Shown here piece after piece: positions 2,132 through 5,120 of a stretch of 5,120 nt of DNA; the first letter of the stretch is position 1, and the number at the start of each line of letters is the position of its first letter. The DNA is from Clostridia bacterium (GTDB lineage: Bacteria; CBDUZB01; JAGLHV01), in the NCBI GenBank assembly GCA_030595925.1, contig JAUVLC010000145.1, forward strand, positions 1 to 5,120. The letters are read 5' to 3'. The position numbers were made by a program, and so were the translations under genes. A model generated the notes under the pieces. It was not told the origin of the DNA, ran no database searches, and worked only from the letters and a program-made list of their open reading frames with translations.

Positions 2132-2160
2132 AACTGTCTTTTGTTAGACAGTTATTTTTA
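2132..2160 (+). terminator. Perfect 8-bp inverted repeat with T-tract: terminator, or operator of the next gene
   Basis: AACTGTCT (2132-2139) and AGACAGTT (2146-2153) pair perfectly around a 6-nt loop and are followed by ATTTTTA. That is the form of a Rho-independent terminator, and it would separate the GGDEF gene from the next unit. The stem has only three G-C pairs, and it lies about 195 nt after the upstream stop codon but only 67 nt before the next start. An operator role is therefore also possible. The right arm overlaps a possible -35 box at 2145-2150. Confidence 0.42.
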
Positions 2161-2173
2161 TTAAAGAGATAAG
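2145..2173 (+). promoter_or_regulatory. Possible promoter for the primase-like gene
   Basis: TAGACA (2145-2150, five of six matches to the -35 consensus) lies 17 nt before GATAAG (2168-2173, four of six matches to the -10 consensus). Transcription would start near 2180, about 40 nt before the ATG at 2220. The -35 box lies within the right arm of the inverted repeat, so a protein bound there would block it. In AT-rich DNA a match of this quality is only suggestive. Confidence 0.28.
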
Positions 2174-2219: not shown

Positions 2220-3617
2220 ATGTTAAGTTTAACGGATTTTTATTTTCATCCTGAGGTGCGAAGGAGAATTGTAGAATATTGTGGAGGAGAAGGGGATAAT
2301 TTTTCTTCTTTTACAGCCGCAACACTGGTTGGTTATGGAGAAAAAAAACACTGGATAGGTAAAAATCATGAAGAGATTGGACTTTCTCCTCAAGAGGGAT
2401 TCGAGCAGATATTAGGGAACGGATGGGATATTTTTCGTTCCAGTTGGGATAAGATGAGTAGTTTGGGTATTTTGGATGTGGAATATTTTAATATGGATTA
2501 TCCGGGAGAAATATATCTTAATCCTTACCGGACATTTAGTAGATTAGAGTTGTTATATAAAACGGTATTAAGTGTATTTTATAAATTTAACATTATTCCT
2601 TTAGTAATTATGACTGGCCGGGGATATCATTTTTCCATTCGTTTACCTCAAAACAACAAAATCCATCAAAAAATCGAGGAAATAGGGAGCATCCCTTCTT
2701 CTATAAAAAGCAAATATCTTGGTCTAAAAAATAGGGGACTGTGTTTTTCTCTCAAACAGGGAAAAGCTTATGAGGGGCTCGGCCGGTTAATGGAATATGT
2801 GGTTCATTTGGTTATTAAAAAGATGCGTAATGGGGAAATACCCGTTGTTTGCACTGATTTAGCCGTAGGAATGAATGGTTCAGTACGGGAAGCAATTTCC
2901 CTGGATTTATCTATGTATGGAGACCCTCTCCATTTTCGACACATTCGTTGTCCCTTTAGTACCTATCAAAAACATAAAAATAAGGGATTTAAAATTGGCG
3001 AGTTAGCTGCAAAAAAACCTGTGCAGGTTGCTCTTCCCAGAATGGAAACGGTAAAAATGGAAGATTTGTGTCAGTGGAAAAATGATTTTCGAAAAGCCAG
3101 TGATTATGCAGCTAAAGTAGAAACCCGGATTCCGGATGCATCAAAAGGTTGTGAAAATTTAATCAGGAGTTATAAACGGTCACAGCTCTATCAATTTCAT
3201 AAACATTTTGATTCCCAGGAGCATGATTTGCCTTCTGATTGGGAAAAAACTTATGATCGTTTCGATTTGGGAAAACTTCCCCCCTGTATATCACATTCGC
3301 TCTCTTTTCCCAATGATAATTTATTAAAGCCGACGAATATACAGGCTATTACACGGGTGTTATTAAAAGAAAAATGGCATCCTAAACATATCGCCGGCCT
3401 TATTCGTTCCAAATATGAGCGTAATTATGGTTGGGGAAATATGTGGGTAAGAAATGATGCCAATTTACGTGCCGATTTTTATGTTCGTCTTTTTGCAGGA
3501 CTATTGAGTGACGGAACGGATCAGGAAGAAGATTTAAACTGTATTTCTTATCAGAAAAAAGGGTTTTGTTGGAAGAAGTGGTGTGGATATAGTTTAGAGC
3601 ATTATAAAATTAATTGA
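2220..3617 (+). CDS. Single-chain primase-polymerase-like protein: PriS-like AEP domain plus PriL-like 4-Cys domain
   Basis: This 465-residue protein reads as an archaeo-eukaryotic primase (AEP). Motif I is probably D86-x-E88 in ILDVEYFNMDYPGE, with D93 as the alternative acidic residue. Motif II is T132-G-R-G-Y-H137, close to the family's SGxGxH nucleotide-binding motif. Motif III is D229 in SLDLS, followed by R240-H-I-R243-C-P-F-S and K251, like the 'hIRxPxS-K' stretch after motif III of primase-polymerases. The C-terminal part (about 350-465) opens with LPPC (C356), continues with a helical stretch (PTNIQAITRVLL, HPKHIAGLI) and ends with C441, C450 and C455. This matches the four-cysteine 4Fe-4S layout of the primase large subunit PriL. 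Expected activity is primer or DNA synthesis by a two-metal mechanism, perhaps in damage tolerance or on a replicon. There is no helicase domain, no zinc motif between motifs II and III, and no signal peptide. The ATG at 2220 is the first possible start after an in-frame TAA at 2205; the ribosome site is weak. The domain calls come from motif reading only. Confidence 0.72.
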   Translation: MLSLTDFYFHPEVRRRIVEYCGGEGDNFSSFTAATLVGYGEKKHWIGKNHEEIGLSPQEGFEQILGNGWDIFRSSWDKMSSLGILDVEYFNMDYPGEIYLNPYRTFSRLELLYKTVLSVFYKFNIIPLVIMTGRGYHFSIRLPQNNKIHQKIEEIGSIPSSIKSKYLGLKNRGLCFSLKQGKAYEGLGRLMEYVVHLVIKKMRNGEIPVVCTDLAVGMNGSVREAISLDLSMYGDPLHFRHIRCPFSTYQKHKNKGFKIGELAAKKPVQVALPRMETVKMEDLCQWKNDFRKASDYAAKVETRIPDASKGCENLIRSYKRSQLYQFHKHFDSQEHDLPSDWEKTYDRFDLGKLPPCISHSLSFPNDNLLKPTNIQAITRVLLKEKWHPKHIAGLIRSKYERNYGWGNMWVRNDANLRADFYVRLFAGLLSDGTDQEEDLNCISYQKKGFCWKKWCGYSLEHYKIN

Positions 3618-3663: not shown

Positions 3664-4509
3664 ATGGAAATAGGTATTTCTACAGGGATTATTTATAATT
3701 ATGACTTATTGGAAAAAATTTTTTTATTTAAAGAAGCAGGGTTTGATAGTATTGAAATTTGTTTTAATCCGCGACTAAATAAAGATAATTTTTATCAATT
3801 TGATTATCAAAATTGGATTTATGTATATGAACTTAGAGATAGATTAAAAGAGCTTGGTTTGAAAATACATTCAATCCATGCTCCTTATTCCTCTACCTTT
3901 GACATTTCCGGCTTAAATGAGCAACAGCGTATAAACACAGTAAATGAAATAAGAAATATTATTGATGTTTTAAGAGTTTTGGACGGAAGTGTTGTAGTGC
4001 TTCATCCTACAATAAAAGAAATGTCCGAAAATAATTTTGGAGAAAGAGGTAAATGGTTTAAACAAGCGACGGAAAGTCTTCGGGATATTATTGTTTATGG
4101 AGAAAAAAAGGGGATTAAGATAGCAGTGGAAAATTTACTTCCCCATCTTTTTTTTGGAGATTTGAATGATTTGTTAAATTTAGTCAATCAATTTGATTCT
4201 GAAAATTTAGGAATTTGTTTGGATACTTCCCATGCAAATTTAGGTGCAGGGACCCTGGAAGCGGTAAGAAAATTTGGTCAAAAAATTAATTCCTTACACA
4301 TTTCTGATAATTATGGCAAAAAAGACGATCATTTTCCTGTAGGGGAAGGAACTGTTAATTGGGATGAATTTTTAAGTGAATTGCGAAGGGTAAATTTTAA
4401 AGGGGTCTTTATGTTAGAAATTTTAAAAGAAGTCAGGGAAGAAGAATTGCCGTTAATGTTAAAGAAAATTTATAAAAACACAAGAAAATTGGTGGAGGGA
4501 ATACTGTGA
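3664..4509 (+). CDS. Xylose-isomerase-like TIM-barrel protein (sugar phosphate isomerase/epimerase family)
   Basis: The 281-residue protein is a TIM barrel of the AP endonuclease 2 / xylose isomerase-like superfamily (COG1082 type). Candidate metal and substrate residues come in the expected order at strand ends: H72 (HSIHAPY), H114 (VVLHPT), E156 (AVENL), D187 and H190 (CLDTSHAN), H212 (LHISDN), D221 and H223 in DDHFPVGEG, and E252 (MLEI). The family includes isomerases and epimerases that use one divalent metal, and endonuclease IV, which binds three zinc ions with a similar set. The sequence lacks the endonuclease IV signature ENTAGQG, so an isomerase or epimerase of unknown substrate is the safer call. 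The ATG at 3664 is the only start after an in-frame TGA at 3655, with a weak GGAAA about 10 nt upstream. It follows the primase-like gene by 46 nt and overlaps hisS by 4 nt, so all three are probably co-transcribed. Confidence 0.85.
   Translation: MEIGISTGIIYNYDLLEKIFLFKEAGFDSIEICFNPRLNKDNFYQFDYQNWIYVYELRDRLKELGLKIHSIHAPYSSTFDISGLNEQQRINTVNEIRNIIDVLRVLDGSVVVLHPTIKEMSENNFGERGKWFKQATESLRDIIVYGEKKGIKIAVENLLPHLFFGDLNDLLNLVNQFDSENLGICLDTSHANLGAGTLEAVRKFGQKINSLHISDNYGKKDDHFPVGEGTVNWDEFLSELRRVNFKGVFMLEILKEVREEELPLMLKKIYKNTRKLVEGIL
4494..4498 (+). promoter_or_regulatory. Strong ribosome binding site that fixes the GTG start of hisS
   Basis: GGAGG lies 7 nt before the GTG at 4506, inside the end of the upstream gene. 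The GTGA overlap (start at 4506, upstream stop at 4507-4509) implies translational coupling, and the strong site makes GTG the chosen start although it is not ATG. Confidence 0.75.
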
Positions 4510-5120
4510 AATATTCTTCTGTGCGGGGAACAAGAGACATTTTAAACGAAGAAGCACTGAAATTGCGTTACCTGGAAAATTTAGGGAGGGAGGTGTTTTC
4601 TTCCTATGGGTATAGGGAAATAGTAATTCCTACCTTTGAGCGGACGGAACTTTTTACCCGCAGTATCGGTGAAGTATCGGATATTGTAGAAAAAGAGATG
4701 TATACTTTCCAGGATAAAAAGGGCAGGAGTTTGAGTTTACGGCCGGAAGGGACTGCCGGGGTAGTGCGTGCTTTTATAGAACGTAATTTATATAGAGAAA
4801 ACGCAGCGATGCGTCTTTATTATATGGGGCCGATGTTTCGGTATGAAAGGCCGCAGGCGGGTAGATATAGAGAATTTCGGCAAATAGGAGCGGAATTCTT
4901 TGGTAGTGATGATACCAGGAGTGATGTGGAAATTATAAATGTTTTTGTAGATTTTTTCAGGAAGGCAGAGTTGAAAGAGAAAGATTTCAATCTTTACATC
5001 AATAATGTAGGTTGTGAAAGTTGTAGAAAAAAATACAAAGCGGTTTTTACTAATTCTATGCAAGATAATCTTTCTAAGCTTTGCGATGATTGCCAGAGGA
5101 GATTTTCCCGCAATCCTTTT
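4506..5120 (+). CDS. hisS: Histidyl-tRNA synthetase, N-terminal 205 residues (cut by window end)
   Basis: HisRS charges tRNA-His with histidine in the cytoplasm, through a histidyl-adenylate, as a class II homodimer. The visible part covers about half of the usual 420 residues. It begins with the conserved RGTRDIL (7-13), followed by class II motif 1 around 35-55 (P42, LFTRSIGE). RPEGTA (79-84) supplies the histidine-binding E81 and T83, and motif 2 FRYERPQAGRYREFRQ (111-126) contains R112, which should contact ATP and the adenylate, followed by Q126 and E130. The Cys pairs C170-x-x-C173 and C193-x-x-C196 lie before the RNP-type segment; such pairs occur in clostridial-type HisRS and may bind a metal, which is inference. 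Motif 3 and the anticodon-binding domain lie beyond the window. The frame is intact to the last base. The start is GTG, overlapping the upstream gene by four bases. Confidence 0.96.
   Translation, partial: MKYSSVRGTRDILNEEALKLRYLENLGREVFSSYGYREIVIPTFERTELFTRSIGEVSDIVEKEMYTFQDKKGRSLSLRPEGTAGVVRAFIERNLYRENAAMRLYYMGPMFRYERPQAGRYREFRQIGAEFFGSDDTRSDVEIINVFVDFFRKAELKEKDFNLYINNVGCESCRKKYKAVFTNSMQDNLSKLCDDCQRRFSRNPF

Follow-up and report, generated by a model that had tools for sequence, protein, structure and literature searches.

The 5,120-bp window analysed here, the whole of one contig from a 2.6-Mb genome that is 97 % complete, carries on its forward strand a gene (2220..3617) whose 465-residue product combines primase-like motifs with a cysteine-bearing tail. 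This raised the question of whether bacterial chromosomes can encode, in one polypeptide, the functions that PriS and PriL perform in archaeal and eukaryotic primases, as the original prediction had proposed. According to the principal survey of AEPs in bacteria, these enzymes nearly always reside on mobile elements, and PriL hardly ever occurs apart from the chromosomal primases of archaea and eukaryotes (PMC5862659). If the proposal is true, a PriS+PriL-like chain encoded by bacterial chromosomes that also carry DnaG would violate both generalisations.

The ORF is real and belongs to a conserved family. Homologues are intact across the full length in many genomes, and comparison with two congeners gave dN/dS values of 0.10–0.13, showing that the gene is under purifying selection. 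Searches of Pfam, NCBIfam, PHROGs and PDB sequences with the single 465-aa protein returned nothing, in agreement with the suggestion that the family is undescribed, and a profile search of the PDB with the family returned chance-level matches only. Family members were found in 25 searched genomes and one further locus, across many bacterial families, and several little-studied phyla are among the hosts. Homologues were present in 18/386 sampled bacterial genomes (15/327 genera, 12 families), in additional genomes of small phyla (3/6, 8/16 and 2/2 in separate sets) and at locus L008. All three genomes sampled from the window's own phylum carry the gene. It is also present in all seven genomes of one host family, f73, which points to vertical keeping.

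The N-terminal part of the protein (residues 1 to about 302; 2220..3125, plus strand) is an AEP (Prim-Pol) catalytic domain, as judged by AlphaFold modelling and structural comparison with VIA-align. Every motif picked out by the original prediction was found at its assigned residues: D86/E88, TGRGYH (132–137), D229 followed by RHIRCPFS, LPPC (C356) and the cysteines C441, C450 and C455. On the plus strand, motif I (D86-x-E88, predicted metal ligands) lies at 2475..2483, motif II with the predicted nucleotide-binding His137 at 2613..2630, motif III (D229, predicted third metal ligand) at 2904..2906, and the basic pair R240 and R243 that follows it at 2937..2948. In all 27 aligned members D86, E88, G135, H137, D229, P236, R240, R243, S247 and K251 are invariant. 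D93, which had been listed with the residues expected to be conserved, is replaced by R, K, C, T, S or N among the aligned members and is therefore not catalytic; D86, E88, H137, D229 and the four cysteines did prove conserved.

The AlphaFold model, built from the 27-sequence alignment, had a pLDDT of 88 and a pTM of 0.91. Its best PDB match was Prim-PolC (6sa0_A; Z 17.4, 259 residues aligned at 3.6 Å, 10 % identity), followed by LigD PolDom (2fao; Z 16.7), CAPP (12.6), PriS (11–12) and RepB' (8.8); dozens of chains exceeded Z 10, and all high-Z matches were AEPs. An AEP/RRM-like fold thus accompanies motifs I (hhhDhD/E), II (sxH) and III (hD), and the predicted fold and invariant motifs agree in identifying a catalytic AEP half. 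The label 'PriS-like' holds for the fold in general, but the modelled domain is of the repair-polymerase type and not clearly PriS itself, since it scores Z 16–17 against Prim-PolC and LigD PolDom and about 12 against PriS.

Whether the C-terminal half is of PriL type is a harder question. This helical domain (residues 303–465; 3126..3614, plus strand) was modelled at a pLDDT of 88, and its likeness to the PriL C-terminal domain, with a probable [4Fe-4S] cluster, comes from weak PF04104 matches in two relatives, the hhalign register of the cysteines and their spacing. The predicted first cluster ligand is C356 of LPPC (3285..3287, plus strand) and the predicted remaining ligands form C441-x8-C450-x4-C455 (3540..3584, plus strand). 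Members that carry these cysteines are termed type 1. Every one of the 23 type-1 members of the alignment has C356, C441 and C450, and C455 is in register in 22 of them, the exception (L050) having a Cys close by. All four were also found in seven further type-1 members, giving 30/30 in total, one with the shifted Cys.

The PriL profile PF04104 exceeded its cut-off in 0/386 genomes, and two family members scored below threshold, at E-values of 0.002–0.02. In whole-genome scans the C-terminal half was matched in G340 and G235 (E 0.0024 and 0.0038); chance matches with comparable E-values also turn up at other places in the 386 genomes, so that it is the location of these two matches alone that is telling. 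Two of the four best PF04104 matches fell on one gene, which is not expected by chance, although the G340 and G235 proteins are related and their matches are not fully independent. In the L037 protein, domain residues 40–99 aligned to profile positions 97–157, and a PriL consensus begins, with its FPPC, at profile position 108, which places the first PriL cluster cysteine on the PPC cysteine of the family.

An hhalign comparison of the type-1 alignment with a pair of PriL sequences also brought the cysteines of the two families into alignment, with a score of 28 (60 column-shuffled controls: mean 12.5, sd 3.1, maximum 26.3). The pair comprised human p58, which was confirmed, and an approximate archaeal-like consensus, not a database sequence, which scores 1.3e-35 to PF04104. 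When the cysteine-free paralogues described below were included, the match to the two-row PriL alignment was weak. In the type-1 comparison the residue opposite the PriL initiation arginine (human R306) was not clearly conserved. As in archaea, there are four conserved cysteines, the first within PPC and the later ones close together. The Pyrococcus abyssi PriL has C-x10-C-x5-C followed by NPLTYY, and the family has C-x8-C-x4-C followed by G-x-x-L-x-x-Y; the short spacing is accounted for by archaeal PriL being without most of the C-terminal subdomain (Sauguet et al., PMC2852410). From the location of the PF04104 matches, the hhalign register and this archaeal-type spacing, we consider it probable that the C-terminal half is homologous to PriL, and likewise that it holds a [4Fe-4S] cluster. 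The four conserved cysteines behind the proposed 'PriL-like half' are secure, whilst its PriL ancestry is probable only, and PriL did not appear in the PDB fold search.

Foldseek of the C-terminal domain against the PDB gave no PriL match, and VIA returned the helical domain of RepB' (Z 3.0) and three unrelated chains with lower scores, PriL not being listed; by itself this absence carries little weight. It does fit an alternative in which the C-terminal half is an independent, helical PriCT-like domain binding structural zinc through the four cysteines, and the protein is a repair polymerase of Prim-PolC/PolDom type, not a PriS–PriL fusion. The RepB' domain, the sole match of interest, is PriCT-like, the AEP half is nearest to Prim-PolC and PolDom, and the PriCT domain of CAPP also bears conserved cysteines (PMC8211822). 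Against this stand the PF04104 matches in two genomes, with the PPC cysteine in register, and the hhalign alignment that sets the family cysteines on those of the PriL cluster; moreover, PriCT and the PriL Fe-S_N domain have themselves been proposed to be homologous (PMC5862659). We judge the zinc-binding alternative to be somewhat unlikely, and retain a probable PriL-type domain as the preferred assignment.

Fusion of the two functions is not new in itself. Single PriS–PriL chains have been reported from Nanoarchaeum equitans, plasmid pTN2 and a Bacillus provirus (PMC3973330), and the DPANN cluster 2 archaea carry such a fusion, of the N. equitans type, in one chromosomal gene (PMC7414124); the latter contradicts the earlier statement that single-chain versions come mainly from plasmids and mobile elements. 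Compared by published description, the DPANN proteins resemble the present family in joining a catalytic AEP and a PriL-type domain in one chromosomal gene, but they are archaeal replicative primases, whereas the hosts here are bacteria with DnaG and the AEP half is nearer Prim-PolC. With PolpTN2, hhalign detected no similarity (E 0.28 and 0.37). PolpTN2, from Thermococcus nautili plasmid pTN2, also fuses a PriS-like domain to a PriL-like Fe-S domain (PMC3973330), but is plasmid-borne, has 945 aa with additional PriCT-1 and winged-helix domains, and has Gln in place of the motif II His (PMC5862659). This Gln and a location on mobile elements mark the PolpTN2/PrimPol-PV1 supergroup; the family described here has an invariant His, lies among housekeeping genes and had no relative in the plasmid, phage and viral collections searched. 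With archaeal and eukaryotic PriS–PriL the family shares the same two predicted functions, the order of the cysteines and, with archaea, their spacing. Those primases are encoded by two genes and include a PriL N-terminal domain and a PriS zinc motif, whereas in this family there is a single chain, whose AEP and cysteine domains lie too close together to accommodate a PriL N-terminal domain. What seems new is a bacterial chromosomal family of this kind, of which the literature searched gave no description.

A chromosomal setting cannot be seen from the window alone, as the window is one whole contig, but it is backed by longer contigs of relatives. Upstream of the AEP gene, in the window as elsewhere in its genus, lies a receiver–GAF–GGDEF response regulator (483–1937), separated from it by a terminator-like hairpin with a T run (2132..2163, plus strand; 8-bp stem, fold z −2.0). 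A match of this regulator to SduA was rejected, as it covers the receiver domain alone. Downstream, the immediate neighbour is a plus-strand gene (3664..4509) for an endonuclease-IV-like TIM barrel (AP_endonuc_2, PF01261, 1.9e-42), which is followed by the 5' part of hisS (4506..5120, plus strand; PF13393, 3.6e-31). The gene had been placed 'beside hisS'; hisS is indeed close, but the TIM-barrel gene is the adjacent one. Across lineages the neighbours are housekeeping or metabolic genes, and include hisS, PhoH, TldD, CysRS, GlgE, 2-oxoacid dehydrogenase E2, YbbR, chromate transporter, ThiF, LpoB and glycosyltransferases. A seemingly conserved cluster of upstream neighbours (c3) turned out to be merely glycosyltransferases of different kinds.

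These surroundings bear on the possibility that the gene is the replication primase of an integrated element, such as a plasmid or provirus remnant. Bacterial AEPs are, as a published rule, nearly always borne by mobile genetic elements (Kazlauskas et al., PMC5862659), and some genomes carry tandem or second copies. However, plasmid, phage and IMG/VR viral collections held no relative of the family (129 pattern matches on viral contigs included none), and no helicase is fused or adjacent to the AEP. Neighbours such as hisS, tldD, cysS, glgE, YbbR and glycosyltransferase genes, the presence of the gene throughout the sampled genomes of its phylum and of f73, and a dN/dS of about 0.1 likewise speak against such an origin, which we regard as very improbable. 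The chromosomal location proposed at the outset is thus upheld by the housekeeping neighbours, the lack of relatives in these collections and the contigs of relatives. Nor is the AEP the replicative primase, given that the hosts have their own DnaG (over cut-off in 17/18 host genomes, and as fragments in the 18th).

The closest structural relatives suggest what the enzyme might do instead. The family shares the AEP fold, a chromosomal location and the catalytic triad with Prim-PolC (LigC-associated) and LigD PolDom, but identity to the AEP half is 9–13 %, and among the identified neighbours there was no sign that the gene shares an operon with, or is fused to, LigC, LigD or Ku. Prim-PolC and LigD PolDom act with LigC or with LigD/Ku, and neither is known to have a PriL-like or four-cysteine C-terminal domain. 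A polymerase for NHEJ-type or microhomology end joining at double-strand breaks, similar to LigD PolDom, could be envisaged, as PolDom is the second-best structural match and archaeal PriSL joins ends without Ku (PMC12019639). Yet Ku was found in 1/18 host genomes and is missing from the other 17, and no ligase occurs among the identified neighbours, so that we hold an end-joining role to be unlikely. CAPP has the same domain order, an AEP followed by a C-terminal PriCT with conserved cysteines (PMC8211822), and matches the family at Z 12.6, which might suggest a CRISPR- or defence-associated enzyme. CAPP proteins are linked to cas1/cas2 and often fused to TPR or RT domains, whereas no cas gene was found among the annotated neighbours of the AEP (part of the flanking ORFs being annotated), family members matched no PADLOC model, and there was no sequence match to CAPP chains in the PDB. 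Of the explanations considered, a CAPP-like function seems to us the most improbable.

The TIM-barrel gene offers a further indication of function. In seven lineages (the window's own genus, L035, L037 with L061 and L063, L040, L041, L050 and L086) it immediately follows the AEP gene, the AEP stop and TIM-barrel start codons overlap in some of them, such as L050, and the order of AEP, TIM barrel and next gene is repeated in L007, L037 and L040. As the TIM barrel is missing from the AEP flanks of about half the lineages, it cannot be an obligatory partner. In the AEP tree the lineages that have it are interleaved with others; a count of one change on this tree was set aside, as the label test leaves out unlabelled rows. 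The nearest solved structure is MJ1311 (4.6e-39), and of the NCBIfam models that for the phosphodiesterase CbiR fits the copy in the window best, though below cut-off. Eight of the nine endonuclease IV metal-ligand positions align, relative to an Nfo sequence whose ligand numbering was checked. At the ninth, Nfo H69, most copies have a His three residues away, and the L054 copy has Ser opposite Nfo D229. By this sequence comparison, the TIM barrel may act as a nuclease.

Taken together, we favour a chromosomally encoded primase-polymerase that consists of one chain, is not the replicative enzyme, probably has a PriL-type domain with a [4Fe-4S] cluster, and serves DNA repair or damage tolerance, a reading in which our confidence is evenly balanced. 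In this model the AEP domain would bind two metal ions through D86, E88 and D229 and the nucleotide through H137, and would add nucleotides to a 3' end. PriL-CTD and PriX hold the template and the initiating nucleotide (PMC5700102); the cysteine domain may do the same, and so allow the enzyme to begin a new strand or to hold on to a short primer or a gap. The enzyme would then reprime past damage or fill gaps during repair. In some lineages the adjacent endonuclease-IV-like phosphodiesterase might cut or clean ends for the AEP. Prim-PolC provides the analogy: when mycobacterial base excision repair with this enzyme was reconstituted, it worked best with endonuclease IV (PMC5663958).

Type-2 members form a separate clade in which the catalytic residues are kept but the chain stops short of the cysteine tail. 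Both types occur together in six f73 genomes. Type-2 genes at L051:6356-7645, L052:3048-4340, L053:3183-4472 and L054:8059-9297, in genomes that also have type 1, retain the catalytic triad and are without the four cysteines, a pairing that parallels archaeal PriL/PriX. More tentatively, and doubtful as a whole, we speculate that the family is a vertically kept bacterial chromosomal primase of long standing in several candidate phyla, whose initiation domain is truly of PriL type with a [4Fe-4S] cluster; that with its endonuclease-IV-like partner it would form a repriming or excision-repair pathway; and that the cysteine-free type 2 would parallel the archaeal PriL/PriX split. The role of the primase Fe-S cluster is disputed (PMC5700102), and a 465-residue chain with natural Cys-less paralogues is a good object on which to test it.

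The type-2 genes of L052 and L054 adjoin PHP-domain, PhoH–PIN and ClpC-like genes, and a very divergent AEP-like ORF of 515 aa (L053:1587-3131) lies directly upstream of the type-2 gene of L053. A deep-branching AEP subgroup (G031b/G041), represented by L047:8384-9700 and L043:8359-9678, has a C-terminal domain without the RNYGWG stretch. Tandem AEP pairs occur at L036:2446-5276 and L008:2658-5520, with the four cysteines in both copies; the second copy has TTxSGYH as motif II, compared with MTGQGYH, and it is possible that the two copies form a heterodimer.
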